Assembly (NCBI RefSeq): GCF_004001325.1
Contig: NZ_AP018722.1
Coordinates: forward strand, 1,054,001 to 1,118,000
Length of the DNA: 64,000 bases
Reading direction: 5' to 3'
DNA from: Thiomicrorhabdus aquaedulcis
GTDB lineage: Bacteria > Pseudomonadota > Gammaproteobacteria > Thiomicrospirales > Thiomicrospiraceae
The position numbers were made by a program, and so were the translations under genes. Positions within the stretch are counted from its first letter, which is position 1, and each line of letters starts with the position of its first letter. Positions 6,794-32,751 of this stretch are shown here, piece by piece. Below the pieces are notes generated by a model. That model ran no database searches. It was not told where the DNA came from and saw nothing but the letters and a program-made list of their open reading frames with translations.

Positions 6794-6809
6794 AGGGCGG
6801 CGAAAACCG

Positions 6810-7802: not shown

Positions 7803-7819
7803 ACACTAAGCACTAATAA

Positions 7820-7960
7820 ATGATCACAGAAAACAAAGCCTATTTGCCCAATAAAGAAAAATACAAATTTTTTGTAGCGCGAGATACCTTTGCAGGAATG
7901 AGGCGCACGGAAAAATGGCATGGCAAATTTTTAGTAGATTTAATTGGAATAAAATTATGA
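7820..7960 (+). CDS. Small ORF of unknown function overlapping fdtA
   Basis: A 46-residue reading frame (MITENKAYLPNKEKYKFF onward, containing RDTFAGMRRTEKWHGKF) that overlaps the fdtA start by four bases in an ATGA junction. I do not recognise it. It could be the tail of a deleted gene upstream of fdtA, since it is preceded by an AT-rich repeat (7784-7818) of the type found at several gene joins here. Confidence 0.35.
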   Translation: MITENKAYLPNKEKYKFFVARDTFAGMRRTEKWHGKFLVDLIGIKL

Positions 7961-8922: not shown

Positions 8923-8958
8923 CAATCTGTTTTATGCTATCACCCGGCAAGGTGTGGC

Positions 8959-9483: not shown

Positions 9484-9499
9484 GCGGCTAGGAGGCAAG

Positions 9500-9754
9500 A
9501 TGAGCCAGTTAGTGTTAGAGATAAAAAATGAAATGGTAAAAGAGCGTTTTATGTGGCTTTTACAACACTTTAAAAAAGATGAACTCGAAATTATTAGCGA
9601 AATCCAATCTCAAGACAACCAGGCCTGGTCGGACGAATACATCAAACAAAACTGGCGTCAATTGATCAAGACCAGCACCATGCTACCGAGCTATGAAGAT
9701 AGTGAGCAGTATCGTGAAGATTATGGACAATATTTATTGGAAAAATATAAATGA
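9500..9754 (+). CDS. Putative antitoxin of a PIN-type toxin-antitoxin pair
   Basis: An 84-residue, highly charged protein ([20 protein letters not shown], then [10 protein letters not shown]) with a good ribosome site (GGAGG) in front. It overlaps the start of the PIN-domain gene by four bases, the usual antitoxin-toxin order. I see no clear DNA-binding motif. A copy of the palindrome at 9618 writes DNQAWSD. The antitoxin role is inferred from size, position and the PIN partner. Confidence 0.6.
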
Positions 9755-12566: not shown

Positions 12567-13069
12567 TCGAATCCCTGATTGGCCCAATTTCTGAATGGTT
12601 GATTAAAAAAGGCCAGGATAAAATTAAAGAGTCTGCGGAGTTTCAAAACACACGCTTGGCGATTCGTCAGGCGGTGGTGCGGGAACTTCGCTTGAATCGG
12701 GCTTTTATTGACGAGGTGATAAAGCCTAAAGAAGACGCTACAGGTTTGACCCTTGCCATGGCTGAAGAATTGGATGTCAGTGCGTTTAATAAGTTGGAAG
12801 ACTCGTTTATCCCGATCGAACTTTTTTTTGATTGCGAACGCCCTACATTAGATGAACAAAATACGGATGGTCAATTTTTAAACTGGTCAAACCAGCTTGA
12901 AAATGAAGCCTTGTGGGTCGAGCGTATTTATATGCGGTTACGCATTCTGCGAGCACGCTGGCGTTGTGGAAAAGCGCCAACAAATAAAAGTGTGCAATAT
13001 GTCCGCTGGCTAATCGATACCTGGTTAAAACATCAAGCAAACCAAACAAAAACCCACCGGCCGGTGTAA
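12563..13069 (+). CDS. Unknown 168-residue protein
   Basis: I do not recognise this protein. It is soluble and basic at its C-terminus (RIYMRLRILRARWRCGKAP), starting [20 protein letters not shown]. The ATG at 12563 overlaps the wzx stop in an ATGA join, so I prefer it to an upstream ATG at 12551. It has no glycosyltransferase or membrane features. Given its neighbours it may be an accessory or defence gene rather than a sugar gene, but that is a guess. After it comes an AT-rich repeat at 13090-13128. Confidence 0.6.
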   Translation: MIESLIGPISEWLIKKGQDKIKESAEFQNTRLAIRQAVVRELRLNRAFIDEVIKPKEDATGLTLAMAEELDVSAFNKLEDSFIPIELFFDCERPTLDEQNTDGQFLNWSNQLENEALWVERIYMRLRILRARWRCGKAPTNKSVQYVRWLIDTWLKHQANQTKTHRPV

Positions 13070-13180
13070 ATTTGTATAAACAAAAACCAAAGCTCATTAA
13101 GCATTAAAAATTAAGCATTCAAATTGAAAACAACCAGGCTTGTATGCCCATTGGGTAGCGTGGATGAGGAAAAGAAATAA

Positions 13181-14247
13181 GTGAAAATATTATTATTGGG
13201 CGAATTTAGCGCTTTACACAAAAACCTAAAAGAAGGTTTGGTTGAATTAGGGCATGAAGCAGTTGTTGCGGCAAGTGGTGATGGCTTTAAAAAGGTGCCG
13301 GTTGATATTTCATTTGACTCTAATTTGCCAGGTGTATTCGGAAAGATTGATAGAAAATTAAAACCCCTTTATTTGTTGAATAAATTAAATGGTTTTGACG
13401 TAGTTCAGCTCGTTAACCCCTACCCATTTCGCCATAAGTTTTTTCCAACAGAGTATTTTTATAAAAAAGTTAAAGATTTAAATGACAAGTTTTTTTATTA
13501 GGTGCCGGCGATGATGCCTATTTTTGGAAGTATGGCCGAAAGGCTTTAAAATATGGTCCTTTTGACGATTTTTTGAAATACGATCACGGTAGTGAAAATT
13601 TTCATATGGATACTGAAGATTCTTTTGCATTTAATGAAAGAGTCATTGAATTAGTTGATGGAGTTATTCCTATTATGTATGAATATGAAGTTAGCTATGC
13701 CAACCACCCTAAAAGGCTGCCAACCATTCCTATTCCAATGAACATGAATAAAATTCAGTATGAAGAAAATAAGTTGGGAAAAAAATTAACTGTTTTTCAT
13801 GGCTTAAATCGTTATGGATTTAAGGGTACGCGTCATGTAGAAGAAGCATTCGATTATTTGTCGAAAAAGTACCCTAATGATCTCGAGTTAATAATCGACG
13901 GTAAAATGCCACTTAATGAATATCTTGAAGTAATGCAGCGCACCAATGTAGTAATCGATCAAATGTATTCCCATTCATTGGGCGTGAATGGTGTTTATGC
14001 GCTTGCAATGGGAAAAATTGTCATGGGTGGTGCAGAACCAGAATCTTTAAAATCTTTAGGTGTAGAAAGTTCACCTGTAATTAATTTACAACCAAATGCA
14101 CAGTCGATTATTGATGAGGTTGAAAATCTTTTAGAAAAACGAAACCAAATTTCTGACTTAGGTTATCAATCAAGAATCTTCGCAGAACAAGTACATGGGC
14201 ACACAAAAGTTGCTCAGCAGTATATCGAAACATGGGGTAAACACTAA
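13181..14247 (+). pseudogene. Glycosyltransferase (GT4-like), single-base frameshift
   Basis: Starts with GTG (MKILLLGEFSALHKNLKEGL) and stops at 13501 after KDLNDKFFY. The next frame continues LLGAGDDAYFWKYGRKALKY and runs to 14247, including HGLNRYGFKGTRHVEEA and the GT4-like GVNGVYALAMGKIVMGG. One more T in the seven-T run at 13489-13495 would restore a protein of about 355 residues. It is otherwise uninterrupted, so the break is recent, an error, or bridged by slippage. It lies directly before asnB. Confidence 0.8.
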
Positions 14248-16137
14248 ATGTGCGGCATAGCAGGCCTGGTGGATTTTCGCCGCCAATCCAGTAAAGAAAA
14301 CCTTCAAAAAATGACGGATGTATTGTTTCATCGTGGGCCGGATGACGGCGGTTATTTTTTTGAGGGCTTTGAGCAATCACAAGTGGGCTTGGGGCATCGG
14401 CGTTTGTCGATTTTGGATTTATCTAATCATGGGCATCAGCCGATGGCATTTGGTCATTTAACCATGGTCTATAACGGTGAAGTTTACAACTTTAAAGAAA
14501 TTCGTTCGGAGTTGGAAAGGCAAGGTTATAGCTTTGAATCCCATTCTGATACCGAGGTGATATTAAAGGCGTATCACAAATGGGGTATTGAAGCGGTGCA
14601 TAGTTTTAACGGTATGTTTGCCATTGCGATTTTTGATAGCCAAAAGCAAACTCTGACCTTGATTCGTGATCGTGCAGGTGTCAAACCATTGTATTGGTAT
14701 CAAAAAGACGGTTTGTTTATGTTCGCCAGTGAGCTAAAAAGTTTTCACGAGCATCCTGCGTTTGTAAAAGAACTTAATCACGATGGCTTGGCCTTGTTTT
14801 TGCAATATGGCTATATCCCGCAACCGCACACGATTTTTAACCACACCTACAAATTAAAAGCGGGCCATTCGCTTGAATTAAACATTCAAAATTCAGAATT
14901 AAACATTACCAAATATTGGGATGTGATTGATTGCTATAACCAACCTAAGCTGGATATTTCTGAGCAAGAGGCCATGGACGAAACCGAGCGCTTGCTAAAA
15001 TCCGCTTGCGAATATCGCATGGTGTCTGATGTGCCGGTGGGCATGTTTTTAAGCGGTGGCTATGATTCCTCTGCGGTCACGGCACTATTGCAATCCGAAC
15101 GCACCGAAAAGTTAAAAACTTTCTCAATCGGCTTTCATGAAGAAAAATTTAACGAAGCACATCACGCCAAAAAAGTAGCCGAGTATTTAGGAACAGACCA
15201 CGCCGAATACTACTGCACCCAAAAGGACGCCCTGGAAATCCTGCCAAAATTGCCAGAAATTTGGGATGAGCCATTTGGCGACGCCTCAGCTATCCCCACA
15301 ACATTAGTTAGCCAGTTGGCAAGAAAAGATGTAACGGTGTCATTAAGTGCCGATGGAGGGGATGAAATTTTTGGGGGGTATGATAAATACACAGGCATTC
15401 AAAGAAAAATGCGTGCTTTTAATAAAATCCCCGGATTTTTACAAGCGCCCACACGATTTGCGTTAGGGTCCAAACTGACGCAATATGCTGCAGAAAAGGT
15501 GGGTGTATTCAACGCAAGAGATAGATTGAATCGTTTTTCTCAAATGATCGGTGAAAATGAAAAAGGTTTGCTGAAAAAAGGCTCACAGGTTTTTACAGAT
15601 CAGGATTTAAATCGCTTTTTGTTAAATAAGCTCAATCCAGTAAAAACCGAATTCGATGCGGAAATTAACCAGGCCTGGTTGGACAATGTCTTGGCGATTG
15701 ACTACAAGACTTATCAGCTTGATGGTATTTTAACCAAAGTCGATAGAGCCACCATGTCGGTCAGTTTAGAAGGGCGCGAGCCGTTATTGGATTACCGCGT
15801 TATCGATTTTGTTGCAAAACTTGATCCGAAACTCAAAATTAACAATAACAATAAAAAATACCTCCTAAAAAAGATAACCCATAAATATTTACCCAAAGAA
15901 ATCATGGATCGCCCCAAAATGGGATTCGGCGTGCCTATTTTTGACTGGTTTAAAGCGGAGTTGAAAGACTATTTAATGAACTATTTAAGTGAAGATCGTC
16001 TAAAACAAGGCGGTATTTTCAATGTACAAGAAGTCCTCAAGCTGCGTGACCGCTATCTAGCAGGCCAGGATGTCAATATCAACCAAATATGGTTCCTGCT
16101 CATGTTTGAAATGTGGAGAGAGAGATGGATGCATTAA
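14248..16137 (+). CDS. asnB: Glutamine-hydrolysing asparagine synthetase-type amidotransferase
   Basis: Full-length, 629 residues. MCGIAGLVDF gives the catalytic Cys2 of the glutaminase domain; LSHRGPDD-like HRGPDDGGYF and MVYNGEVYNF follow. The synthetase domain has the PP-loop LSGGYDSSAVTAL. In polysaccharide loci such enzymes often amidate a uronic acid, and this locus makes UDP-GlcA and probably UDP-GalA, so sugar amidation is plausible. Between the two domains LNIQNSELNITKYW is written by the AT-rich repeat also found at the starts of the genes at 2585 and 3658. Palindrome copies lie at 14261 (AGLV) and 15668 (NQAWL). Confidence 0.93.
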   Translation: MCGIAGLVDFRRQSSKENLQKMTDVLFHRGPDDGGYFFEGFEQSQVGLGHRRLSILDLSNHGHQPMAFGHLTMVYNGEVYNFKEIRSELERQGYSFESHSDTEVILKAYHKWGIEAVHSFNGMFAIAIFDSQKQTLTLIRDRAGVKPLYWYQKDGLFMFASELKSFHEHPAFVKELNHDGLALFLQYGYIPQPHTIFNHTYKLKAGHSLELNIQNSELNITKYWDVIDCYNQPKLDISEQEAMDETERLLKSACEYRMVSDVPVGMFLSGGYDSSAVTALLQSERTEKLKTFSIGFHEEKFNEAHHAKKVAEYLGTDHAEYYCTQKDALEILPKLPEIWDEPFGDASAIPTTLVSQLARKDVTVSLSADGGDEIFGGYDKYTGIQRKMRAFNKIPGFLQAPTRFALGSKLTQYAAEKVGVFNARDRLNRFSQMIGENEKGLLKKGSQVFTDQDLNRFLLNKLNPVKTEFDAEINQAWLDNVLAIDYKTYQLDGILTKVDRATMSVSLEGREPLLDYRVIDFVAKLDPKLKINNNNKKYLLKKITHKYLPKEIMDRPKMGFGVPIFDWFKAELKDYLMNYLSEDRLKQGGIFNVQEVLKLRDRYLAGQDVNINQIWFLLMFEMWRERWMH

Positions 16138-16961
16138 AACCTTACTTTACAATTTTTACACCAACTTATAATCGTGCTGATCGACTACATCGTGTTTACG
16201 ATTCACTAAATAATCAAACGATGAAAGATTTTGAGTGGTTAATAATTGACGATGGTTCTACCGATAATACAAGAGAAGTTGTAGATGCGTTTATAAGCAA
16301 GAATGAAATGCAAATTAGATATATTTGGCAGGAAAATGGCCATAAGAAAAAAGCATTTAATCACGGCGTAAGAGAAGCAAATGGTTTTTTATTCATACCA
16401 GCTGACTCAGACGATACTTTCGAAGGTGACACTTTGCAAACCTTTAAAGAGGTTTATGAAAAACAATCTAATGATATTCAGAGTAAAATTTCTGGAGTAG
16501 TTTGTCTCTGTAAAGATGAGCAAGGGAATGTTATTGGCGACAAGTATCCATCCGATGAATGGTTATCTGATGGTCTGGAAATGCGTTATAAGTATTCAAT
16601 TTCTGGTGAAAAATGGGGATGTATTAAAACAGATATCTTAAGATCTTTTCCATTTCCAGAAGAAGTTGAAGGACATGTGCCTGAAAACGTCATCTGGACG
16701 CCGATTGCGAAGAAATATAAAGCGGTTTTTGTTAATAAACCACTTAGGACATATTTTACCAATGAGTCCGATAGTATAACTCATTCAGGTTTTGCAAAAA
16801 AAAATGCACATGGCGCATACCTTCTTGCAAAAATGGTGTTAGAGAACGAACTAGGCTACTTTTTCAAGAAACCACTCAGTTTTGTTAAAGCGGCTGCAAA
16901 TTACACGCGATTCAAACTAAATATTCCAGCAGATATAAAAATAAAACGCCTTTGTCTCTAG
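16125..16961 (+). CDS. Family 2 glycosyltransferase
   Basis: A GT-A fold glycosyltransferase of 278 residues. FTIFTPTYNRADRL, LIIDDGSTDNTREVV and FIPADSDDTF (DxD-like metal site) are present, with a hydrophilic C-terminus. It overlaps the end of asnB by 13 bases. I prefer the ATG at 16125, which has GGAGAG just upstream, to the ATG at 16113. Sugar specificity cannot be read from the sequence. Confidence 0.88.
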   Translation: MDALKPYFTIFTPTYNRADRLHRVYDSLNNQTMKDFEWLIIDDGSTDNTREVVDAFISKNEMQIRYIWQENGHKKKAFNHGVREANGFLFIPADSDDTFEGDTLQTFKEVYEKQSNDIQSKISGVVCLCKDEQGNVIGDKYPSDEWLSDGLEMRYKYSISGEKWGCIKTDILRSFPFPEEVEGHVPENVIWTPIAKKYKAVFVNKPLRTYFTNESDSITHSGFAKKNAHGAYLLAKMVLENELGYFFKKPLSFVKAAANYTRFKLNIPADIKIKRLCL

Positions 16962-16977
16962 AGCAGAATCGATTACT

Positions 16978-16987
16978 GGGGGGGGGG
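16978..16987 (+). repeat. Poly-G tract of ten
   Basis: Ten G in a row lie in the 82-base gap between two glycosyltransferase genes. It is the longest homopolymer I noticed in this AT-rich window. Tracts of this kind change length during replication. Here it lies 56 bases before the start of the glycosyltransferase at 17044 and could affect its expression, or be the remnant of a coding tract. Confidence 0.85.
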
Positions 16988-17043
16988 CTGGTTTTGTTAT
17001 GCAGCCCACTGGGTTTTCTGCTTTATTTGCGAGATTCTTGTAG

Positions 17044-18141
17044 ATGAAAAAAGTAACGTTTCTAATCAGCTCTCTCGCCGGAGGTGGTGCGGAAGGTGTT
17101 TGCGTGAATGTAGCGAATGGCTTGGCTGAGCAAGGCTTGCAGGTTGATTTGGTGGTGTTGCATTTAAATAATGCGGCTTATCACGACCGAGTATCCGATA
17201 AGGTGAACTTGGTGGTTTTGGGGGTGAACCATGCGCGTTATGCGGGCATGGCTTTGTTGAAATACATTCTTAAACAGAAGCCAAAAACTATTTTGGTGTT
17301 TAATTACGAACTCGCAGTAATGTTAGTGATGTTGCGGAGTATCTTTTATTTTAAGACAAGAATTATCGCCCGAAACATTAATACGCTTTCACAAAAACGC
17401 AATCAGGCACAAGGCTTTTGGAGAAAATATGTGGTAAAGCCGTTGATAGACGGTTTTTACTGCAAGGTGGATCATGTTATCAACCAGTGCCAAGCGATGC
17501 GTGAGGATTTGATTAGCTTGTATCCGCAGTTGGCGGAAAAATCGAGCGTGATTTATAACCCGGTTGCTAAACATATTGAAGACTATGCGAAAACGCATGA
17601 TTTAAGTCAGGTCGAAAAGCAAGATTATTTATTGTGCGTTGGGCGATTGGAAAAGCAAAAAGCGTTTCATTATGCGATAGAAGGTTTTGCTGGGGTGGCA
17701 AATGAGTTTCCCAATCTGCGCCTTAAAATTGTTGGGCAGGGGAGTTTAGAGCAAGTCCTAAAACAATGTGCGGTCGATTTGGGTGTAGCTGATAGGGTGG
17801 ATTTCGAAGGTTTTCAAAAAGACATGATTCCTTATTACCTACATGCAGAAGCAACGGTTTTAACCTCACTTTACGAAGGCTTTCCTAATGTGCTAGTTGA
17901 GTCAATTACGCTTGGCACCCCCGTTGTTGCGTTTGACTGTCAGAGCGGCCCGAGCGAGATTATTCATGATGGCGTGAATGGGTATTTAGTAAAGTATCTG
18001 GATATTGAGGATTTTAAAAATAAATTAGCAAAGCTTATTAATTCAAATTTTGATCCATTAGATGTCAGCGCTAGTGCAAGTAAGAACAGCGTTTTAGAAG
18101 TATCCAAAGCTTACGAAAAAATAATTAATTCAGTAGGTTGA
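17044..18141 (+). CDS. Family 4 glycosyltransferase
   Basis: A 365-residue GT-B glycosyltransferase. The N-terminal glycine-rich SSLAGGGAEGVCVNVANGL, the C-terminal LLCVGRLEKQKAFHYAIEGF and SLYEGFPNVLVESITLGTPV (EX7E motif) are typical of GT4. Codon usage resembles the neighbouring GT genes. It starts ATG at 17044, after the poly-G gap, with only a weak ribosome site. It probably adds one sugar of the repeat unit. Confidence 0.92.
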   Translation: MKKVTFLISSLAGGGAEGVCVNVANGLAEQGLQVDLVVLHLNNAAYHDRVSDKVNLVVLGVNHARYAGMALLKYILKQKPKTILVFNYELAVMLVMLRSIFYFKTRIIARNINTLSQKRNQAQGFWRKYVVKPLIDGFYCKVDHVINQCQAMREDLISLYPQLAEKSSVIYNPVAKHIEDYAKTHDLSQVEKQDYLLCVGRLEKQKAFHYAIEGFAGVANEFPNLRLKIVGQGSLEQVLKQCAVDLGVADRVDFEGFQKDMIPYYLHAEATVLTSLYEGFPNVLVESITLGTPVVAFDCQSGPSEIIHDGVNGYLVKYLDIEDFKNKLAKLINSNFDPLDVSASASKNSVLEVSKAYEKIINSVG

Positions 18142-18150
18142 GGTTTACTT

Positions 18151-19140
18151 TTGCTTCCAGATTACCTAAAAAATAACAATATAAACTCAGGTTACAAGCT
18201 TGGTATTTTACTTTTATCTTTTGTTTACGCCTTTGTTTTGGCAAATTATATTCCAATGGATGGCTCAATAAAGGATAGGCTAAATTATCTCGAGTATGCA
18301 GGGGTTTCTGAGGTAATAATCCTAAAATATCTTTCAGAGGGTTATCTTTCTTTATTTGTAAACGAACCCGTTTGGTTGTCAATCAATATCATTTTAAACC
18401 AGTTTCTTGAACCCGAAACAACACTAAAGTTTATTATATTTTTCACAGCCTTTGTCACAGCTTACTTGGTTTTAAGGGTTAATCCGAAGTACTTTGTTTT
18501 TTTACTTTTTATCTTAGTTTTTCCACAGGTGATAGTTAAGGCTGTAGTGCATATCAGGCAAGGTCTTGCAATAAGCATTTTTTTATTGGGTTGGTTCACG
18601 CTCTCTAAACCTTGGCGATGGTTGTTGTTTGCAATAACGCCCTTAATTCATGCAAGCTTTTTCTTTGTCTTACTTCTTTACGGTTTTACCTGGTTTTTGC
18701 AACAGTTAAAGTTTGCATTAGACTTGAGAACGATAGCAACTGTTTTGCTTGGATTAATGATTGGTTTAGGACTTGGGTTTATCACTTCACTTTTAGGTGC
18801 GCGACAAGCAGGGCAATATGAATTTAGCACAGCAGCAGTTAGTGGTTTAGGCTTTTTATTTTGGTTGGGCGTTTTTGTGTTTTATTGGTTGCAAGGCAGA
18901 AGCTTTGCAAAAGAAAACGCATTGGCAATGGCTGCTATTGCGTTCTATCTAGCAACATATTTCCTAATCGAAGTCACGGCACGAATCTTTGAGAGTATGG
19001 TCATTATTGTGTTGTTGGCGAGCTTAGGATTAACTTCATGGCGCAGAAAAATTTTTATAGCAACGATAACAGCTTTTGTTGGATTGTCTTGGTTGTTAAG
19101 GTTAAATCAGCCATGGCTTGGTTGGGGTGCAGGTTTTTAG
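18151..19140 (+). CDS. wzy: EpsG/Wzy-type polysaccharide polymerase
   Basis: A 329-residue membrane protein with about nine to ten hydrophobic segments (for example LGILLLSFVYAFVLANYI, FVFLLFILVFPQVIVKAVV, LLGLMIGLGLGFITSLLGA) and the HIRQGLAISIFLLGW stretch common to EpsG-family polymerases. It would join repeat units on the periplasmic side after Wzx export. The start is a TTG at 18151, the first possible one before the first membrane segment. It abuts the next gene with no gap. Confidence 0.82.
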   Translation: MLPDYLKNNNINSGYKLGILLLSFVYAFVLANYIPMDGSIKDRLNYLEYAGVSEVIILKYLSEGYLSLFVNEPVWLSINIILNQFLEPETTLKFIIFFTAFVTAYLVLRVNPKYFVFLLFILVFPQVIVKAVVHIRQGLAISIFLLGWFTLSKPWRWLLFAITPLIHASFFFVLLLYGFTWFLQQLKFALDLRTIATVLLGLMIGLGLGFITSLLGARQAGQYEFSTAAVSGLGFLFWLGVFVFYWLQGRSFAKENALAMAAIAFYLATYFLIEVTARIFESMVIIVLLASLGLTSWRRKIFIATITAFVGLSWLLRLNQPWLGWGAGF

Positions 19141-20271
19141 ATGAAAAAAATTATTCATATCATCACGGGTCTTAATGATGGTGGGGCGGAGGCCGTGTTA
19201 TATCGCCTGTGTAGATACGATGAAAAAGCTGAACATATTGTTGTTTCTATGATGGATGTGGGTAAATACGGAGGTTTACTAAAAAAAGAGGGGATTGATG
19301 TTCACTGTTTAAATCTATCGGCCGGTAAAGTTACATTCGCTGCTCTGTGGAAGCTGTATAGGCTGATTCGTTTGCTTAAGCCTGATGTGGTGCAAACTTG
19401 GATGTATCATGCGGATTTGATTGGTGGATTGGTTGCAAAACTTGCAGGCGTAAAAAAAGTTTTTTGGAATGTTCGGCAAACCTCTTTAGAGCCAGGTAAA
19501 TCAAAACGCTCAACTATATTGATTGCAAAACTTTGTGCAAAGCTTTCGGGCTATATTCCGGAGCAAATTATTTACTGTGCGCATGAGGCACAAGCGATTC
19601 ACGAAAATTTAGGATACAAAAAGGGTAAAGCTAAAGTTATCGGCAATGGGTATGATTTAGGATTGTTTGATCAGAATGCTCAATTTCGAGAGATGATTCG
19701 TAATGAGTTTAGCATCGCAACGAAAGAAGTTTTACTGGGTATGGTTGGGCGTTACGATCCGCAAAAAGATCATTCAAATTTGATTTCTGCTTTAGGTATC
19801 GTTAATCAAAAGGGTTTTGAGTTTAAACTGCTTTTAATTGGAAAACAGTTAGATGATAGTAATGACGAGTTGCTAGAACAAATCAAGAGTGAAAGTCTGT
19901 CTGATAATATTCGTCTTTTAGGGCAAAGAACCGATATTCCTTCTGTCATGAATGCCCTTGATATTCATGTATTGTCCTCTTCTTTTGGTGAAGGCTTTCC
20001 TAATGTGTTAGCGGAAGCCATGGCGTGTGGAGCGCCTTGTGTCACAACGGATGTCGGTGATGCGGCTTTGATTGTGGGTGAAACAGGTTGGGTTGTGCCA
20101 CCTAAAGACCAACAGGCTTTGGCGAATGCCATTATGCAAGCGATTCAAGAAAAACAAGAAAATCACCAGGCCTGGCTAAATCGTCAAAAAGAATGCCGTG
20201 CACGAATAGTAGATAATTTTAGTATTGAAAAGATGATAGAGGGCTATCATCGTGTGTGGTCTGAAAAGTGA
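19141..20271 (+). CDS. Family 4 glycosyltransferase
   Basis: A 376-residue GT-B glycosyltransferase: ITGLNDGGAEAVLYRLCRY at the N-terminus, VGRYDPQKDHSNLISAL and SSFGEGFPNVLAEAMACGAP at the donor site. The start follows the wzy stop directly and the stop overlaps the next gene by four bases. A palindrome copy at 20165 writes NHQAWLN. Donor and acceptor are unknown. Confidence 0.92.
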   Translation: MKKIIHIITGLNDGGAEAVLYRLCRYDEKAEHIVVSMMDVGKYGGLLKKEGIDVHCLNLSAGKVTFAALWKLYRLIRLLKPDVVQTWMYHADLIGGLVAKLAGVKKVFWNVRQTSLEPGKSKRSTILIAKLCAKLSGYIPEQIIYCAHEAQAIHENLGYKKGKAKVIGNGYDLGLFDQNAQFREMIRNEFSIATKEVLLGMVGRYDPQKDHSNLISALGIVNQKGFEFKLLLIGKQLDDSNDELLEQIKSESLSDNIRLLGQRTDIPSVMNALDIHVLSSSFGEGFPNVLAEAMACGAPCVTTDVGDAALIVGETGWVVPPKDQQALANAIMQAIQEKQENHQAWLNRQKECRARIVDNFSIEKMIEGYHRVWSEK

Positions 20272-22464: not shown

Positions 22465-22872
22465 ATGGCTGAACAAGATATTCGCTGGCTACAGCGTTTT
22501 GAAAATTATCTGAAAGCACTCGGACAGTTGCAGTCTGCCTTGTCGATCTATGATGCGTCAGCGGATGCGCTGATTAAAGAGGGGATTTTGCAACGTTTTG
22601 AGTTTACGCATGAGCTTGCTTGGAAGGTGATGAAGGACTATTTGCAATACGAAGGGCATCAAGGGATTACGGGTTCACGCTCGGCAAGTCGATTGGCTTT
22701 TAATCTGGGTTTGATAACGGAGGGTCAGGTTTGGATGGATATGATTGAAAGCCGAAATAGAACGGTTCATACCTATGATGAGAACATTTTGGAGCAAGAG
22801 TTTGCAAAAGTTCAAGAGCGTTATGCCAGCGCATTTTTACAGTTTGCGCAAACTATGCAGGGTTTTAAATAA
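22465..22872 (+). CDS. hepT: HepT-like HEPN toxin (HI0074 family)
   Basis: A 135-residue protein of the HI0074/HepT family: RWLQRFENYLKALGQL, LIKEGILQRFEFTHELAWK and VMKDYLQYEGHQGITGSR. Near the C-terminus RNRTVHTY matches the RX4HXY motif of HepT RNases, whose tyrosine is modified by the partner nucleotidyltransferase. That partner (mntA) starts one base after the hepT stop but is cut by an IS21-family element. The toxin itself is intact. Confidence 0.85.
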   Translation: MAEQDIRWLQRFENYLKALGQLQSALSIYDASADALIKEGILQRFEFTHELAWKVMKDYLQYEGHQGITGSRSASRLAFNLGLITEGQVWMDMIESRNRTVHTYDENILEQEFAKVQERYASAFLQFAQTMQGFK

Positions 22873-22889
22873 TGTTTGGGTTGCCTGAC
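22873..22889 (+). pseudogene. mntA: Severed 5' end of mntA
   Basis: ATGTTTGGGTTGCCTGA plus one base: the first codons (MFGLPD) of the nucleotidyltransferase antitoxin, followed at once by the insertion sequence. Joined to the sequence after the element, using one copy of the 7-base duplication, it reads MFGLPDDTLTSMQQVFHCYP in one frame. Confidence 0.8.
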
Positions 22890-22945
22890 TATTAAGCGAC
22901 AATTACCTTGGCCGGTTTAGCGACAATTATCTTGGCCGGTTGATC
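22890..22945 (+). repeat. IS21 left terminal inverted repeat
   Basis: Starts TATTAAGCGACAATTACC and contains two spaced copies of the transposase-binding type unit ending CTTGGCCGGTT. Confidence 0.88.
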
Positions 22946-22982
22946 TGATAAAGTTCGGCACAGCAGAACGGAGGAATTCACT

Positions 22983-24476
22983 GTGCCGGGAATAAGAATC
23001 TCAGATCAACAGGTCACAATTTATATGAAAAGTAGAAAGCATAATAGCCAAGTTATCGCGGCGGCCAAAGCCGGTATTTCAGAGCGAACAGCTAGGCGAA
23101 TTGATAAACAAAACGAACAAAAAACGGCCAATCAACGCCAATGGCGAACCCGCAAAGATCCGCTTGATTCTATTTGGGACAGCATCGTTGTTCCTATGCT
23201 TCAAGTCGATGAATCGATTACACCGGTTGGTCTGTTCGATCACCTTTGCGAGTTTCACACCGATAAATTTAAGCCGAGTTCACGGCGAACACTTGAGCGA
23301 CGCATTCATAAATGGCGAGCGTTTCATGGCGCGGGGAGAGAGGTGATATTCATCCAGACCCATGAATACGGAGTATTGGGGATCTGTGATTTCACGCACG
23401 TTCAGTCGCCTGTTACGATTGCAGGTGAGCCGCTAAAACACATGCTATTTCATTACCGTATGCCCGCCAGTGGCTGGGCTTATGCGCAAGTGATTTACGG
23501 CGGTGAAAGCTTCGCCGCCTTCTCGGATGGTTTGCAAAAGGCTTTTAAGACCGCAGGTGGCGTTCCTAAGGTCGTTCGAACGGACAGTCTCAGTGCCGCT
23601 TATCGGAACCACTCAAATGATGACGATTTAACCGAGCGCTTCAGCGAGCTTGTTACCCATTATGGGTTTAAAGCCACACGCAACAATCGCGGGATCGCTC
23701 ATGAGAACGGCGCGATTGAGAGCCCTCATGGACACCTCAAATCACAGATCGAGCAAGCCTTGAAAATCCGAGGCCATTACGACTTTAAAAATCGTGAGGC
23801 CTATGAAACCTTTATAACAGACATTGTTGCTCGGCGTAATCGCCGCATCAGTGATAAATATTTACTTGAGCAGCGACAATTACAAGCATTACCACGGGTC
23901 ATGAGCGTCAATTACACCGAGCATTACCTGAGCGTATCGCGCACGAGCACCATCGCACTAAAGCGGGTGACCTATAGCGTGCCTTCACGACTGATCGGTA
24001 GCCGATTATTGGTTCGCCTCTACGACAACCGATTAGAATTATTTTATAGCACGGATTTGATTCAAACACTTGAGCGGGTTTACGCAGTTAAGGGAGAACG
24101 CGCACGTCATATTAACTATGTACATGTCATTGACGCACTGGTTAAAAAGCCTATGGCATTCCGTCACTCACAGTTGCGTGACGACTTACTGCCGGACGAC
24201 AATTACAAGGCCATCTGGCAATACGTTGATGAGAACCTTTTGGCGGATAAAGCCAGCTATTACATGGTAAAACTGCTGCATTTAGCCAAACAAAGTGGTT
24301 GTGAGCGTCAATTAGGGCGTTTTGTGGCCGCCGAAATCGCTCAGCGACAATTACCGGCCATCCGGGAGTGTGAAGCGCAGTTTTTGGTCATTGAACCGAA
24401 CATCCTAAAGATGACGGTCAAACAACACAGCTTGAGCGCTTACAGCCGCATGATACCTGGAGGTCTACATGGATAA
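22983..24476 (+). CDS. istA: IS21 transposase IstA
   Basis: A 497-residue DDE transposase. An N-terminal helix-turn-helix region (AAAKAGISERTARRID) precedes the rve catalytic core. GICDFTHVQ gives the first acidic residue, VVRTDSLSAA the second, and AHENGAIESPHGHLK the third. A GTG start at 22983 is backed by a GGAGG ribosome site; an ATG at 23025 is possible. It ends overlapping istB by eight bases. Confidence 0.93.
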   Translation: MPGIRISDQQVTIYMKSRKHNSQVIAAAKAGISERTARRIDKQNEQKTANQRQWRTRKDPLDSIWDSIVVPMLQVDESITPVGLFDHLCEFHTDKFKPSSRRTLERRIHKWRAFHGAGREVIFIQTHEYGVLGICDFTHVQSPVTIAGEPLKHMLFHYRMPASGWAYAQVIYGGESFAAFSDGLQKAFKTAGGVPKVVRTDSLSAAYRNHSNDDDLTERFSELVTHYGFKATRNNRGIAHENGAIESPHGHLKSQIEQALKIRGHYDFKNREAYETFITDIVARRNRRISDKYLLEQRQLQALPRVMSVNYTEHYLSVSRTSTIALKRVTYSVPSRLIGSRLLVRLYDNRLELFYSTDLIQTLERVYAVKGERARHINYVHVIDALVKKPMAFRHSQLRDDLLPDDNYKAIWQYVDENLLADKASYYMVKLLHLAKQSGCERQLGRFVAAEIAQRQLPAIRECEAQFLVIEPNILKMTVKQHSLSAYSRMIPGGLHG

Positions 24477-25221
24477 CCTAACCGCCTCATTGCCTTTAAT
24501 GCTCAAGCAACTGAAGCTTGCAACCATGGTTGGACAGTGGGACGCACTTGGCCAAAAAGCGGTAAAAGAACAGTGGAGCCCACAGCAATACTTATCTGAG
24601 CTTTGTCATATCGAACTGGCGACACGTGAGGATAAGCGCCTACAGCGCCTTTTAAAAGACGCTAAGTTACCGATGAGTAAAAACCTTGGCAACTTCGACT
24701 TCAGTCTTGTTGAGGGCGTCAACAAGCCGCTTGTTGCCCAGTTCATTGAGCAAACCTATTGGTTGAAGCTTGGCGCGAACATTTTGTTGTTCGGGGCCAG
24801 TGGCCTTGGGAAAACCCATATCGCCAGCAGCATTGGTTATGGCCTGATCGAGCAAGGTTATAAAGTGAAGTTTATGGCCGCCTCAGCCATTGTTCAACAA
24901 CTCCAACAAGCCAAGCAGCACTTACGTTTGCAGGACGAGCTTCTGAAGCTCGATAAATACCCATTACTGATTGTTGATGACGTGGGTTATGTTCGCAAAA
25001 CCGAACAAGAAACCAGTGTCCTCTTTGAGCTCATTGCGCATCGCTATGAGCGACACAGCCTGATCATGACATCGAATAAATCGTTCGAACAATGGGATGA
25101 ACTTTTTGATGATTCAACGATGACCATCGCAGCCATCGACCGACTGGTTCATCATGCAACGATTATTCATTGTGAAGGTGAAAGCTACCGACGCAAAATA
25201 GCCATGAGTAACGGTAAATAA
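24469..25221 (+). CDS. istB: IS21 helper ATPase IstB
   Basis: A 250-residue AAA+ ATPase that assists IstA in target selection. Walker A GASGLGKTHIASSIG, Walker B LLIVDDVGYV and the C-terminal CEGESYRRK are present. Length is normal for IstB. Confidence 0.95.
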   Translation: MDNLTASLPLMLKQLKLATMVGQWDALGQKAVKEQWSPQQYLSELCHIELATREDKRLQRLLKDAKLPMSKNLGNFDFSLVEGVNKPLVAQFIEQTYWLKLGANILLFGASGLGKTHIASSIGYGLIEQGYKVKFMAASAIVQQLQQAKQHLRLQDELLKLDKYPLLIVDDVGYVRKTEQETSVLFELIAHRYERHSLIMTSNKSFEQWDELFDDSTMTIAAIDRLVHHATIIHCEGESYRRKIAMSNGK

Positions 25222-25227
25222 AATTCG

Positions 25228-25284
25228 GTATCAACCGGCCAAGATAATTGACGCTAGACCGGACAAAGTAATTGACGCTGTATA
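25228..25284 (-). repeat. IS21 right terminal inverted repeat
   Basis: Read on the minus strand it starts TATACAGCGTCAATTACT and matches the left end through two CAATTA...CCGG units, with a few differences. Confidence 0.88.
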
Positions 25285-25582
25285 GCCTGACGATACATTA
25301 ACTTCCATGCAGCAGGTATTTCATTGCTATCCTCAAGTTGAAAAGGTCATTATTTATGGTTCGCGTGCCAAAGGTAATTTTCGTATCGGATCGGATATTG
25401 ACTTGACTTTGTTAGGCGAAAATCTCAATGGCTCAGTATTAAGTCATATTTTGGTTGATTTGGATGATTTAAATACGCCTTATATGTTGGATGTGTCTTT
25501 ATTTAAGGATATTGGTTCGAAAGATTTGTTGGACCACATTGCGCGAATGGGAAAGGTGTTTTATTCAAGAGAAATTGCTTGA
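25285..25582 (+). pseudogene. mntA: MntA-like nucleotidyltransferase antitoxin, 5' end displaced by IS21
   Basis: The GSX10DXD signature of minimal nucleotidyltransferases is intact (GSRAKGNFRIGSDIDL), as are DDLNTPYMLDVSLF and GKVFYSREIA at the end. The native ATG and first five codons lie 2.4 kb upstream, before the insertion element. An in-frame ATG at 25307 (native Met12) could restart translation and give 91 residues. MntA-type antitoxins add AMP to the HepT tyrosine, so whether this remnant is expressed decides whether HepT is neutralised. Confidence 0.85.
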
Positions 25583-27489: not shown

Positions 27490-27580
27490 GTCATTGCGAG
27501 GAGCGAAGCGACGTGGCAATCCATGGTGAGGATGTACGGGTTTTTGAGATGGATCGCCACGCTTCGCTCGCGATGAAGGC
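27490..27580. repeat. Pair of TCATTGCGAGGAGCGAAGC-type repeats
   Basis: TCATTGCGAGGAGCGAAGCG at 27491 with CGTGGCAATCCATGG after it, then a second inverted half ATCGCCACGCTTCGCTCGCG at 27553. They follow galE and could fold into a long hairpin and end its transcript. Confidence 0.75.
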
Positions 27581-27646: not shown

Positions 27647-27847
27647 ATGTATGCTGTAGAGTTTGAAACGGACATTAAAAGTAAATACATTGAAATTAAG
27701 GACTATAGCAAGATTCTTAATAAGCATGCCAAGGTTATCGTCTTAGTTGAGGATTCGGAGATGCATGCTGTTGCGACTAATCAAAATGACTTTATTGCCA
27801 CTTTATTGAGTCAACCTAGGCATATAACGCAAGGTTCTTCTTTTTGA
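27647..27847 (+). CDS. Small antitoxin-like protein
   Basis: A 66-residue protein (MYAVEFETDIKSKYIEIKDY, then HAKVIVLVEDSE) with the beta-rich N-terminus common in small type II antitoxins. No toxin gene follows in frame; a repeat (27871) starts 23 bases downstream, so a partner may have been lost. Identification is by shape only. Confidence 0.5.
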   Translation: MYAVEFETDIKSKYIEIKDYSKILNKHAKVIVLVEDSEMHAVATNQNDFIATLLSQPRHITQGSSF

Positions 27848-27870
27848 GCCGAGAGCAAGCTAACAGGGTG

Positions 27871-27898
27871 AAGGGGTCAGGTCTTACATTACGACATT
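27871..27898 (+). repeat. RAYT-associated repeat, copy 1
   Basis: AAGGGGTCAGGTCTTACATT followed by ACGACATT. The same 28 bases, nearly exact, recur at 29684-29711, and the first 22 occur inverted at 30666-30687 at the end of the RAYT transposase gene. Confidence 0.85.
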
Positions 27899-28018
27899 CA
27901 GTTAGTGAAGCCTAGATCTGCTGGTTGTGGAAGAATGCCTGCAAGGCAATCCATGGCTTTTCTCTTTACTTATTCTTTTTATTACTGTTAGTGAAACTAT
28001 ATGTCTATTTATTTCTAT

Positions 28019-28042
28019 AAAGTGAAAGTATAGATTCACTTT
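28019..28042. promoter_or_regulatory. Candidate HipB operator
   Basis: Inverted repeat AAAGTGAA (28019-28026), eight bases, TTCACTTT (28035-28042), about 60 bases before hipB. A related GTGAAA half-site lies near 27990. HipB proteins repress their own operon at such palindromes. Confidence 0.5.
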
Positions 28043-28100
28043 GTCGAAATGTGAGTGTATTATTAGATGTTATGTTGGCGACGAAATAAGGTTGTTTGTA

Positions 28101-28406
28101 ATGGCTATAAAAAGAACGGCTACGCTGTTTCCAAAACAAGAAAAGTTCATGAAGCAGTTAGGCGAAAATATACATCTAGCAATTAAACGCAGAAAGTTAA
28201 CGCAAACTCAAATATCTGAAAGAACAGGGCTGTCAAAACCTACCCTTAGAAAAATTGAAAGAGGGGAAGGGTCTGTCTCTATAGGTCATTATATATTGGT
28301 TTTATCTGTTTTAGGGCTTGCTGAAGATATGGCTAAGGTTGCACAAGATGATGAGCTAGGGCGGAAGTTGCAAGATATAAAGTTGTTGAAGAGCCGCACA
28401 TTATGA
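28101..28406 (+). CDS. hipB: HipB-like antitoxin/repressor
   Basis: A 101-residue XRE-family helix-turn-helix protein: GENIHLAIKRRKLTQTQISE followed by RTGLSKPTLRKIERGEGSVS. It overlaps hipA by four bases. An ATG at 28101 is preferred to an upstream in-frame start because the HTH begins about 20 residues later. It should bind and neutralise HipA and repress the operon. Confidence 0.88.
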   Translation: MAIKRTATLFPKQEKFMKQLGENIHLAIKRRKLTQTQISERTGLSKPTLRKIERGEGSVSIGHYILVLSVLGLAEDMAKVAQDDELGRKLQDIKLLKSRTL

Positions 28407-29647
28407 GTAGAGAAATCTATGTATACGCTCATTGGCAGGGAATGGATGCCCAAAAAGTGGGTGTGTTACGCGTTGATCAAGTGAGAGGGAGTGAGCATTT
28501 TAGCTTTACTTATGAAACAACGTGGTTAGTATCCAAATATGCTCAGCAAATTGACCCAGATTTAGGTTTATTTCAAGGTGAACAGCATAGTAACAATGAC
28601 CGTAATTTCAGAGTATTTTTAGACTCTTGTCCAGATCGCTGGGGACGCCTGATTATGACGCGTCGTGAAGCGGTTTTAGCGAAGCAAGAGAACAGACGGC
28701 CGAGAAAGTTGACTGAAACCGATTACTTGATGGGGGTTCATGATACGCATCGCATGGGGGCTCTTCGTTTTAAACTCGAAGAGGACGGTCTATTTCTTGA
28801 TGATAATACACATCTAGCGACTCCTCCTATTTCTTCATTGAGAGAGCTGGAACTGGCCGCCTCGGAAATAGAAGAGTCTGGAAAAGTAAACGATGCAGAC
28901 TATTTGAAATGGTTAAGTATGCTTGTTTCTCCGGGTTCGTCATTAGGTGGTGCACGCCCTAAGGCCAGCGTAGTAGATGAAAGTGGTAATTTTTGGATAG
29001 CAAAGTTTCCTAGTCGATACGATGATTATGATATAGCCGCTTGGGAGATGGTTGCTTATCGATTGGCTTGCGTGGCGGGTATCGATATATCTCCTTGTAT
29101 GATTGAACAATATAACAACCATCAGCATACATTTTTAACTAAGCGTTTTGACAGGGTAGATGGTGAGCGTCTACATTTTGCTTCGGCAATGACACTATTG
29201 GGGTATTACGACGGAGATGAGGGTGCAAGTTATTTGGAATTAGCTGAGTTTTTAAGTGAAAATGGCGCTAATACTAAAAGAGACTTAGCGCAATTATGGC
29301 GAAGAATTGTATTTAATATTGCAATATCAAATACTGATGACCATCTTAGAAATCATGGTTTTATCCATACGAGTAGGGGATGGTTGTTATCTCCTGCTTA
29401 TGATCTTAATCCAGTGCCCGATAGTTCGGGTTTACATCTTAATATTGATGAGATGGATAATCGATTGGATTTTAACCTCGCTTTTTCAGTCATTGACTAT
29501 TTTCAACTTAGTCAGGTAGAAGCAGAGGGTATCTATCGAGAAGTGATTGAGTCTGTTAATCAGTGGGAAAAAATCGCTGATGGATTAAAAATAAATCCAC
29601 AAATGCGTGAATTGATGGCACCGGCATTTTCAGCGACAAGGCTGTAA
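28403..29647 (+). CDS. hipA: HipA-like serine/threonine kinase toxin
   Basis: A 414-residue HipA family kinase. SPGSSLGGARPKASVVDESG is the nucleotide-binding loop, FLTKRFDR follows, and NTDDHLRNHGFIHTSRGWLL with SPAYDLNPVP holds the catalytic and metal-binding aspartates. HipA kinases phosphorylate aminoacyl-tRNA synthetases in known cases. Length and the overlap with hipB mark an intact module. Confidence 0.92.
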   Translation: MSREIYVYAHWQGMDAQKVGVLRVDQVRGSEHFSFTYETTWLVSKYAQQIDPDLGLFQGEQHSNNDRNFRVFLDSCPDRWGRLIMTRREAVLAKQENRRPRKLTETDYLMGVHDTHRMGALRFKLEEDGLFLDDNTHLATPPISSLRELELAASEIEESGKVNDADYLKWLSMLVSPGSSLGGARPKASVVDESGNFWIAKFPSRYDDYDIAAWEMVAYRLACVAGIDISPCMIEQYNNHQHTFLTKRFDRVDGERLHFASAMTLLGYYDGDEGASYLELAEFLSENGANTKRDLAQLWRRIVFNIAISNTDDHLRNHGFIHTSRGWLLSPAYDLNPVPDSSGLHLNIDEMDNRLDFNLAFSVIDYFQLSQVEAEGIYREVIESVNQWEKIADGLKINPQMRELMAPAFSATRL

Positions 29648-29683
29648 AACCAGGCTGTGATTATGGGTAAAGGGGTCAGGGAA

Positions 29684-29711
29684 AAAGGGTCAGGTCTTAC
29701 ATTACGACATT
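29684..29711 (+). repeat. RAYT-associated repeat, copy 2
   Basis: AAAGGGTCAGGTCTTACATT plus ACGACATT, a direct copy of 27871-27898. A further partial copy (AAGGGGTCAGG) lies at 29670-29680. With copy 1 it brackets hipBA; with copy 3 it brackets the transposase. Confidence 0.85.
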
Positions 29712-29842
29712 TAGCCTAGTCTCAAAATGTACTTGCCGTTAGGCAATAAGCAATACGATGGTTTTGGGTTGGTCAAGTATTGCTGTGCTTTGGTTGTTAG
29801 CCGTCATAAGTAGCATTCGTAACGCAAAAGGGTTGGGTTTAT

Positions 29843-30679
29843 ATGTCAAGACCATTAAGAATTGAGTTTTCGGGTGCTGTGTACCATGTGACTTCTAGAG
29901 GAGATCGGCGAGAAGATGTTTATTTAGATGATGGCGATCGCCAATTGTGGCTTGATACGTTGGGAGAGGCTTGTGATCGGTTTGGTTGGATAATTCATAG
30001 TTACTGTCTAATGACAAACCATTATCATCTTTTGGTTGAAACGCCGAATGGCAATCTTTCAAGGGGGATGCGTCATTTAAACGGTGTTTATACTCAACGA
30101 TTTAATCGCAAACACAATCTGTCGGGTCATTTGTACCAGGGGCGCTTTAAAGCAATTTTGGTTCAAGCGGATGCGTATTTATTGGAGTTGTCGCGCTATA
30201 TTGTGTTGAACCCGATACGGGCCAATATGATAACTGACTTAAGCGCTTGGGAGTGGAGTAGCTACCCTGGCATGGTTGGATTGGTCGTGGCGCAAGATTG
30301 GCTGGCAAGAAAACCGCTTCTGCTGCAGTTTGATAGCAACCTGAAGCAGGCTGTAGCAAAATACACCTCTTTTATCAAAGAGGGGGTTAATAAGCCTTCG
30401 CTGTTGGGCCATGACTATCAGCATTCTATTTTAGGTGATGAGCAATTTATTGAAAATATTCGTGCGCAATATGCGGATATTCAGGACAAAGAAGTAACCA
30501 GCCAGCGGCAAATACGACGGCCGTTAAATGAATATGCTGATTGTTGTCAGTCGAAAAGTGAAGCGATGGCAACCGCTTACCTTGCTGGGCACTATACGAT
30601 GAAGGAAATTGGCGATTACTTTGGTGTGCATTATGTGACGGTTAGCCGAGCGGTCAAGCTGTATGAATGTAAGACCTGA
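29843..30679 (+). CDS. REP-associated tyrosine transposase (RAYT, Y1 family)
   Basis: A 278-residue Y1 HUH-type transposase: MSRPLRIEFSGAVYHVTSRG, the HUH motif in LMTNHYHLLVETP, GHLYQGRFKAILV, and the catalytic-tyrosine region LELSRYIVLNPIRAN. The C-terminus (HYTMKEIGDYFGVHYVTVSR) adds a helix-turn-helix. RAYTs move or spread short palindromic repeats; the repeats at 29684 and 30666 bracket this gene in opposite orientation, and the last one overlaps its stop. Confidence 0.93.
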   Translation: MSRPLRIEFSGAVYHVTSRGDRREDVYLDDGDRQLWLDTLGEACDRFGWIIHSYCLMTNHYHLLVETPNGNLSRGMRHLNGVYTQRFNRKHNLSGHLYQGRFKAILVQADAYLLELSRYIVLNPIRANMITDLSAWEWSSYPGMVGLVVAQDWLARKPLLLQFDSNLKQAVAKYTSFIKEGVNKPSLLGHDYQHSILGDEQFIENIRAQYADIQDKEVTSQRQIRRPLNEYADCCQSKSEAMATAYLAGHYTMKEIGDYFGVHYVTVSRAVKLYECKT

Positions 30680-30687
30680 CCCCTTTT
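30666..30687 (-). repeat. RAYT-associated repeat, inverted copy 3
   Basis: AATGTAAGACCTGACCCC followed by TTTT, the inverse of the repeat at 27871 and 29684. It contains the RAYT stop codon. Confidence 0.85.
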
Positions 30688-30692
30688 GTGCT

Positions 30693-30806
30693 ATGCTAGA
30701 TGCCGAGCGTTTTTTGATTGATGCTCGTGTGCTGGATATATGGTCGCGTGATTACTTTGTGCAGTTGGCACAGCGTATTAAGTTTTTAGAGAAACTAAGG
30801 TTTTAA
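30693..30806 (+). pseudogene. Gene fragment of unknown origin
   Basis: A 37-residue frame, MLDAERFLIDARVLDIWSRD to KFLEKLRF, directly after the RAYT repeat. It looks like the tail of a longer protein whose front was removed when the repeat/transposase arrived. I do not recognise the family. Confidence 0.35.
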
Positions 30807-31871: not shown

Positions 31872-32138
31872 ATGTTCATGATTCATGAAAACTTAGGGTT
31901 TGTGAAAATGATTGAGCAAAGCATGTACGATACACAGTCTATTTTACCAAAATCTTGGCGTACAAATTTTATAGAAAAGTCTGGTTCATTACACCTGGAG
32001 TTAGTGGTGAATTCAGAACTCTTTGAGTTAGAACTGATTGAAAGAAATGTTCATAGAAAAGAGAGTCTTGAAGCTTTTAAGCATTATGGACTAGGGATAA
32101 GGGTGCGGTTTTTTGGGGCGTTTTGCGACCAACCCTAA
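31872..32138 (+). pseudogene. Unknown gene truncated by IS3 debris
   Basis: About 75 native residues (MIEQSMYDTQSILPKSWRTN, FELELIERNVHRKESLEAF) and then a tail that is the antisense of the IS3 orfB fragment from about 32095 on. The family is unknown. The start may be the ATG at 31872 or 31908. Confidence 0.4.
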
Positions 32139-32387
32139 GGTTTTCATGAGCCGTGAGGTTTTAAATACGCCCATAGCAAAGCCTTCTTTTCTCAAGGCGT
32201 TGGATAATCGGCGTTTGCCATAGGTATCAAAACTCTCATCAAACATTTTTTCGGCCATTTCATTCATCTTTTCTTGTTCAGGTGGCACTGCCGGTTGGTA
32301 GTAATAGCTTGAAACGGGTAACTCCAGGAGGTTACACAGTTTCTCTATACTGACGTTTGATTCGGCCTTGACCATTCGCTTAATCAT
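32091..32387 (-). pseudogene. IS3 transposase orfB, N-terminal fragment
   Basis: MIKRMVKAESNVSIEKLCNL, SYYYQP and SFDTYGKRRLSNALRKEGF are the typical start of IS3 orfB. The catalytic rve domain is missing, so it is inactive. It overlaps orfA by four bases; in intact IS3 elements the two are joined by frameshifting. Confidence 0.85.
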
Positions 32388-32751
32388 TTCAAGTTTGGAT
32401 TGTCGCGTATGAACAAGGCTGTGGCCTTTTTTAATAGTCGTATATCCTCTCTTGCCTCGGCGAGTTCTTGTTTGAGCTCATGTATGAGCCGTTTATCGGC
32501 ATCCAAGGGGATTTTGCCTTCGATCATTTCACCGCGTTGTTCAGCGAGATATTGCTTTTTCCAGCGCGTGACTGCAGAGGCAGCCGCGCCTGAAATTTCC
32601 ATAATTTGTTTGTTGGTGTAATTGGCTTGCACCATCAATCTGGCGTATTCGTGTTTTTGTTTGGGCGTTACATTAATGCGATCTTTTCTGCTGTTATCGG
32701 TCATGATCCATATCCTATAGTTGAGGTAATTATAGGCTATGAAACCCTACA
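32095..32751 (-). mobile_element. Truncated IS3-family element
   Basis: Carries intact orfA and the first 95 or so codons of orfB on the minus strand. The likely outer end is at 32751 (TGTAGGGTTTC read on the minus strand); the other end is deleted. It has inserted into an older IS4-type transposase gene, the rest of which follows from 32752. Confidence 0.75.
32384..32704 (-). CDS. IS3 transposase orfA
   Basis: A 106-residue HTH protein: DRINVTPKQKHEYARLMVQA, SAVTRWKKQYLAEQRGE and a C-terminal leucine zipper-like LIHELKQELAEAREDIRLLK. Complete by itself but left without a functional orfB. Confidence 0.88.
   Translation of the reverse strand: MTDNSRKDRINVTPKQKHEYARLMVQANYTNKQIMEISGAAASAVTRWKKQYLAEQRGEMIEGKIPLDADKRLIHELKQELAEAREDIRLLKKATALFIRDNPNLK

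Follow-up and report, generated by a model that had tools for sequence, protein, structure and literature searches.

A hipBA toxin–antitoxin module between two left ends of a TIRtron in Thiomicrorhabdus aquaedulcis

How does a toxin–antitoxin (TA) module come to lie between two direct copies of a transposon end? The question is raised by a locus of Thiomicrorhabdus aquaedulcis (NCBI RefSeq assembly GCF_004001325.1, contig NZ_AP018722.1, positions 1,054,001 to 1,118,000 of the forward strand), a stretch of 64,000 nucleotides that we call the window and in whose own numbering positions are given. Here hipBA is followed by a gene for a Y1 transposase, and the initial annotation described both as bracketed by a 28-base repeat, direct on either side of hipBA and inverted at the end of the transposase gene, and proposed that hipBA may have been carried as a composite unit. 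We tentatively favour a different history, to which we give a probability of about 0.4: the left end of the transposon was duplicated, and hipBA now lies at the seam between the copies, rather than having been transposed with them as a composite. Movement of hipBA as part of a composite unit is possible but unproven.

The direct repeat is present on either side of hipBA (27871-27898 and 29684-29711), with one mismatch in 28; we call these copies left end 1 (LE1) and left end 2 (LE2), and with their flanks they align further (Table 1). The inverted copy, the right end (RE), lies where the annotation placed it and shares bases with the final codons of the transposase gene (stop at 30679), but the length given for it did not stand. 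It matches the left-end copies over 20-22 nt rather than 28. The inner ACGACATT is confined to LE1 and LE2, so that all three copies agree over those 20-22 nt alone. LE2 and RE form an inverted pair of 22 nt with 95% identity. RE and LE1 read GGGGTCAG and LE2 reads AGGGTCAG, one base off GGGGWSAS, and the inner 8 bases are the same in LE1 and LE2, with one base different in the left end of a related element from Thiomicrorhabdus sp. NP51. Three matches to the end motif occur in the window at up to 3 mismatches, against 0.04 expected in shuffles. In the 2.54-Mb genome, a search allowing up to 2 mismatches gave four matches, three exact and all at this locus and one with 2 mismatches, and a reversed control pattern gave one. 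As such, the end motif is not a dispersed repeat, and we discarded the reading of the ends as members of a dispersed REP family in this genome. A TA module thus does lie between two direct copies of the end, besides RE the genome holds no further exact copy, and a single extra copy placed at random would have a chance of about 0.0014 of lying within 1,813 bp on either side.

LE1 stands alone and retains 38 nt of the left end, including the GGGG motif. Homology past 27901 is no better than in shuffles, 138 of 1,000 of which reach the score obtained against the NP51 end and 295 of 1,000 that obtained against LE2, and we therefore rejected LE1 as a full left end with an inner hairpin. The hairpin predicted in the left end beyond this point, TTGCC-GTTA-GGCAA, has a fold not stronger than shuffles (z=-0.78). 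An outer flank, GGGTRAA, is common to LE1 and a partial tandem copy beside LE2, and is absent from the NP51 element.

The stretch 29684-30687 is one TIRtron, with a Y1 transposase gene inside terminal inverted repeats, as follows from its anatomy and from the copy in NP51. In the available portions of Di Nocera et al. (2013; PMC3733652), TIRtrons are described as having a Y1 transposase (TIRYT) with a C-terminal extension resembling a helix-turn-helix (HTH) and GGGGWSAS terminal inverted repeats, without REPs, and the repeats as occurring as singles, dimers or groups. The features given for TnpA_Y1 subclass 2.1, which is RAYT group 1, in the available portions of Quentin et al. (2018; PMC6006769) match the window element. 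The transposon itself is of an already known kind. Its designation as a RAYT in the initial annotation is imprecise, because the Y1_Tnp match, the ends, the non-folding termini and a missed RAYT cut-off (NCBIfam REP_Tyr_transpos score 70.8, cut-off 80) are features of TIRYT or subclass 2.1, and the genome holds just three exact copies of the end. An HYH motif is seen by eye in the translation, residues 244-276 at the C-terminus give weak matches to HTH_23 (E=0.0046) and HTH_28 (E=0.066), both below the cut-offs, and neither a fold nor a palindromic REP was found in the terminal 34 nt of the element. With RAYTs and REPtrons the element has in common the Y1 superfamily and repeats on either side of the transposase gene, but it lacks palindromic REPs and a dispersed family, and falls under the RAYT cut-off. 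With TIRtrons it shares the Y1_Tnp domain, inverted ends of GGGGWSAS type and the lack of REPs; passenger genes are not mentioned in the available portions of either paper. A gene-free stretch of 133 bp in another genome (L027 of G291, 1500-1632) has the same inverted ends and resembles a miniature inverted-repeat transposable element.

Table 1. Coordinates of the features at the hipBA locus (window numbering; ORF, open reading frame)
Feature	Position	Strand	Evidence
66-aa ORF, orphan antitoxin-like by eye, outside the bracket on the left	27647..27847	+	no Pfam match at E<=0.001
LE1, solo left end	27864..27901	+	38 nt (copy plus flank), 89% identity to 29677-29714
hipB, HTH antitoxin	28101..28406	+	HTH_3 E=8.8e-10
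hipA, HipA-family kinase toxin	28403..29647	+	HipA_C PF07804 E=1.1e-48
Partial tandem copy of left end, GGGTAAAGGGGTCAGG	29665..29680	+	15/16 (94%) identical to 27866-27881
LE2, left end of element	29682..29714	+	inverted pair with 30666-30687; NP51 identity starts at 29687
Complete TIRtron element, ~1.0 kb	29684..30687	+	29687-30687 97% identical to NP51 over 1,003 aligned bp
TIRYT-type Y1 transposase, 278 aa	29843..30679	+	Y1_Tnp PF01797 E=1.8e-13
RE, right end, overlaps transposase stop	30666..30687	-	motif matches, pairing with LE2
abiEii nucleotidyltransferase toxin gene, C-terminal remnant	30690..30806	+	73% over 30 aa to the G003 AbiEii C-terminus

Domain matches bear out the identity of hipBA (Table 1), and hipB also matches the couple_hipB model (E=4.8e-10), with 39.2 bits under a model cut-off of 71.65. 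As in HipBA type II TA systems, an HTH antitoxin gene overlaps a HipA_C kinase gene, and the module itself is nothing unusual. It alone fills the gap between LE1 and LE2, in whose ORF list no insertion machinery was seen, and the GC content of the gap (0.398) is lower than that of the galE (0.472) and SDR (0.497) genes of the locus. The spread of hipBA does not depend on the TIRtron. The nearest HipA relatives in the genus (75% in G006, 57% in G010) are both at other sites; no exact copy of the end motif was found in these two genomes, and none within 3 mismatches in 16 kb around the hipBA of G006 or 4.3 kb around that of G010. A total of 774 plasmid records carry HipA relatives (E<=1e-5), all with less than 60% identity, and where plasmid copies of the bracket were sought, matches fell in the hipBA part only (best 10 of 15). 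The polysaccharide locus of G010 (L205) has, immediately before galE, a distinct gene of the HipA family (C1:719703-720188; 27% match, E=4e-5).

The copy of the element in NP51 (G014; contig VCMI01000079) is without hipBA, its sequence identity to the window ends at the ends of the element, and its flanking DNA shows no alignment with the window. No HipA match was found in NP51 at E<=0.001. An SDR homologue lies ~1.2 kb from this copy, so that both copies sit in polysaccharide loci of one kind, at differing positions. The NP51 element is part of an array of four left ends, three TA-bearing intervals and one transposase gene, the reading frame of which is broken by a frameshift. Two solo left ends of this array are each followed by the same 3' fragment of an SDR gene. 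Over positions 1-20000 of the contig (L204) the array comprises one complete, though frameshifted, TIRYT element, three left ends that stand alone and four stretches with TA genes, together with duplicated parts of SDR and sugar-transferase genes.

Recurrence of TA genes between such ends in other genomes is the interesting part of this locus, as it hints that the ends may help to gather them. Related transposases were found in 84/369 sampled genomes of the same class, presumably Gammaproteobacteria (E<=1e-40), and, with a stricter limit, in 36/398 genomes of the phylum. From these we assembled a discovery set of 68 regions (60 fetched, 7 further loci and the window) and a hold-out set of 40 (38 from the phylum search and 2 from the class search), the test for which was fixed before any hold-out sequence was inspected. 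Clear inverted ends, GGGTCAGG-like, were present in 44 of the 68 discovery regions and 26 of the 40 hold-out regions, that is in 70/108 with the window included; the remaining 38 had no ends by the rule used and were left out of the counts. Intervals between ends of the same orientation were counted if they were at least 300 bp long and without transposase fragments, which dropped the shorter ones of L239, L249, L272 and L286 and those with transposase fragments in L272 and L310, and left 15, assigned by hand. TA genes were present in 8 of these 15 intervals, compared with 3 of 121 flanking stretches of ~1.5 kb (Fisher p=4e-7). The eight intervals hold HipA in the window; an MqsA antitoxin with a partner without family assignment, DarT with Macro plus RelE with HTH, and MNT with NTase_sub_bind in NP51; ParE with a ribbon-helix-helix protein, and YoeB with YefM, in L264; ParE in L286; and PIN in L311, the last a weak match under the Pfam cut-off (E=0.0006).

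The excess persists when the two Thiomicrorhabdus loci, the window and NP51, are set aside (4/11 intervals against 2/117 flanks, p=0.0004), when loci are counted in place of intervals (3/7 against 2/68, p=0.005), and with a looser control (5/117 flanks, p=0.003). In the main count the MqsA interval was taken as TA and an orphan ribbon-helix-helix interval in L286 was not. Without the MqsA interval the count is 7/15 (p=4e-6), and with a toxin or an antitoxin counted on both sides it is 9/15 against 6/121 (p=6e-7), or 5/11 against 4/117 without the window and NP51 (p=0.0002). Pfam checks covered the TA genes of the intervals and two ordinary genes (a cNMP gene in L268 and a DUF3592 gene in L239). 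Genes in L249, L334 and the right-hand interval of L268, and another two ORFs of NP51, received a name by eye or none. Beyond the outermost right end of L264 a further Phd/PIN-like pair is seen by eye.

The extra ends also tend to share the orientation of the nearest true end. For far extra ends, taken as those at a distance of >200 bp to 6 kb (two NP51 copies past 6 kb being left out), 18 copies lay with and 2 against this orientation in the discovery set, and 4 with and 2 against in the hold-out set, so that 22 of 26 copies keep it (p=0.0003, the copies not being independent). By locus the figure is 11/14 (p=0.03), or 10/13 without the window (p=0.046), with L338, which has one copy in each orientation, dropped. 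A tally with other limits over 49 elements gave 12 direct and 1 inverted copies far upstream, and 6 RE-like and 2 direct copies far downstream. Tandem left ends 27-38 bp apart are seen in G104 (L028, L033) and G029 (L145), a left end together with a truncated transposase copy lies upstream in L272 and L310, and in L249 a 3' fragment of sdaA, named by eye, is repeated together with the end. Such duplicated adjacent DNA beside extra ends makes local duplication of an end with its neighbour the simplest source of extra ends.

A search for the exact 18-base end in contigs of one genome per species gave 73 other stretches. A transposase match, with the window protein as query, was present in 12 of them, and the rest were single copies, short plus/minus pairs or clusters. 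With 2 mismatches allowed, 34 pairs of neighbouring copies enclosed a gap of 350-4,500 bp; 4 of these gaps were the elements themselves. The end motif is present in many copies, as pairs or clusters and without a transposase match in the stretch, in L138 (a Magnetococcales metagenome-assembled genome) and in other bacteria.

We propose the following history for the window. The TIRtron was probably inserted into a former abiEii gene, since RE abuts the tail of abiEii, and LE1 would be an extra left end that arose by local duplication, as appears to have happened beside some related elements. Repeated ends could then act as seams, at which recombination, or the rejoining of single strands cut by the transposase, may add or remove small neighbouring genes. 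TA modules would tend to survive at such seams, and hipBA would be the module now present between LE1 and LE2. Movement of the whole of LE1 to RE as a composite may have occurred, and would not be needed.

A number of observations weigh against this proposal. A recombination event at the ends was not directly observed, and the 38 nt of identity between LE1 and LE2 is short for RecA. Taken alone, the hold-out set gives 4/6 copies for orientation (p=0.34) and TA genes in 1/2 usable intervals, and by itself it is not significant. The other 7/15 intervals of the survey hold ordinary genes in six cases (four of them named by eye) and an orphan antitoxin in one, and toxins in the control flanks were judged by eye, except in the NP51 flank. 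In L264 and NP51, TA genes are found immediately past the outermost end as well, and so these may be TA-rich islands. The dispersed ends point the same way, with TA-like genes, by eye, in 3/30 gaps (L111, L118, L128) and in 1/11 of those between ends of the same orientation (L118). Dispersed ends as such thus do not gather TA genes, and a TA excess, if there is one, would be confined to ends that adjoin a transposase gene.

The arrangement might instead be a coincidence, in which LE1 is a remnant of an earlier copy of the element and hipBA arrived independently. This is consistent with HipA relatives being widespread without the element, as on the plasmid records and in G006 and G010; with the other TA-like genes of the locus and its counterparts (the AbiEii remnant, an MNT gene and the orphan ORF); and with the existence of intervals that hold ordinary genes and of dispersed end families without TA excess. 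We nevertheless regard it as somewhat unlikely, given that the proximity and shared orientation of the sole extra copy would be improbable by chance, that the inner 8 bases of LE1 are those of LE2, from which the NP51 left end departs by one, and that the survey shows both an orientation bias and a TA excess. Composite transposition, with LE1 used together with RE so that LE1-hipBA-LE2-transposase-RE (~2.8 kb) entered abiEii as one single-stranded unit, would account for hipBA as the sole gene content between LE1 and LE2, for the length of left end and the GGGG motif kept by LE1 and for the position of RE against the abiEii remnant, and similar layouts of left end, TA genes, left end, transposase gene and right end occur in NP51, L286 and L311. 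However, no other AbiEii match was found in this genome and LE1 is not preceded by the 5' part of abiEii, so that this history needs an extra deletion; moreover, the unit is present in one copy only, the NP51 element is without hipBA, and homology of LE1 ends before the predicted hairpin. On balance we consider composite transposition unlikely.

It is more doubtful still that hipBA landed by its own means between pre-existing tandem left ends. The tandem ends of G104 and G029 provide a precedent, and LE2 carries a partial tandem copy, the outer GGGTRAA flank of which is shared by LE1, but this shared flank is just 7 bases with one mismatched, and the gap shows neither insertion machinery nor a duplicated target. 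A broader reading, which we also hold to be improbable, though slightly less so than the composite, is that TIRYT ends build TA cassette arrays, the outer and inner ends being used in turn with the opposite end. One small single-strand transposase could in this way pick up, stack and move TA modules. The NP51 array would be the type case and the window its one-cassette form, and the ends would have a role like that of the attC sites of integrons, from which such arrays would differ in having no dedicated recombinase. Our preferred reading, a duplicated left end with hipBA at its seam, may also be compared with the dif/pdif modules of Acinetobacter plasmids, small cassettes, often TA, that lie between short repeated XerCD recombination sites; here too TA cassettes lie between short repeats, but the repeats of the window are transposon ends and the enzyme is a different one.

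The movement and accumulation of chromosomal TA modules is poorly explained. If TIRYT ends do serve as TA seams, this would be testable in species with several strain genomes, and a common, little-studied kind of transposase would gain a role beyond its own movement. Among the matches listed in our literature searches, none described a TA module lying between TIRYT ends, which is not proof of absence. Words beginning with 'toxin' are absent from the main text of PMC3733652, and PMC3686654 has no occurrence of TIRYT, terminal inverted repeats or toxin.

A shared or empty site was sought in 32 genomes of the genus, the own genome included, of which 27 have SDR matches and 31 galE matches. The window genes were compared with 30 SDR loci (flanks of up to 1.5 kb, that of the own genome included) and 5 other loci, ORFs were listed in six of these SDR and other loci, and seven larger regions were examined, galE loci being seen only inside three of them. 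None of the genus loci examined shares the galE-SDR site of the window, and an orthologous empty site identified through SDR or galE was rejected for this reason. Nor was a second copy or an empty site of the unit from LE1 to RE found in the own genome or in these loci.

The flanks of the bracket hold further TA-like genes. The AbiEii protein of G003 (L193) matches PF08843 (E=1.4e-33), and its alignment with the remnant beside RE begins at 30690; a second protein, from G058, is 60% identical over 30 aa, and a further alignment to it starts at 30672, inside RE. The abiEii remnant stands without its usual partner gene. On the other side, the 66-aa ORF has a remote paralogue elsewhere in this genome (32%, E=2e-4), which is followed by a RelE/ParE-like ORF (by eye). 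No partner gene for the 66-aa ORF was seen at the locus, and a small ORF past RE was rejected as a candidate, being the AbiEii remnant instead. Further upstream, IS21-type istAB genes (22983-25221, named by eye) lie between an ORF at 22465-22869 and a gene for an MNT nucleotidyltransferase at 25307-25582. The homologues of the two are adjacent in G010 (L205, 9577-9981 and 10017-10283), and thus this HEPN/MNT-type module (22465-25582) looks to have been split by insertion. Between galE and LE1, near 27490-27580, lies an interspersed TCATTGCGAG...GCAATCCATGG repeat, which is also found in other loci of the genus and beside the NP51 element. On the minus strand at 32091-32704, two ORFs resemble, by eye, parts of an IS3-type transposase that is possibly degenerate.

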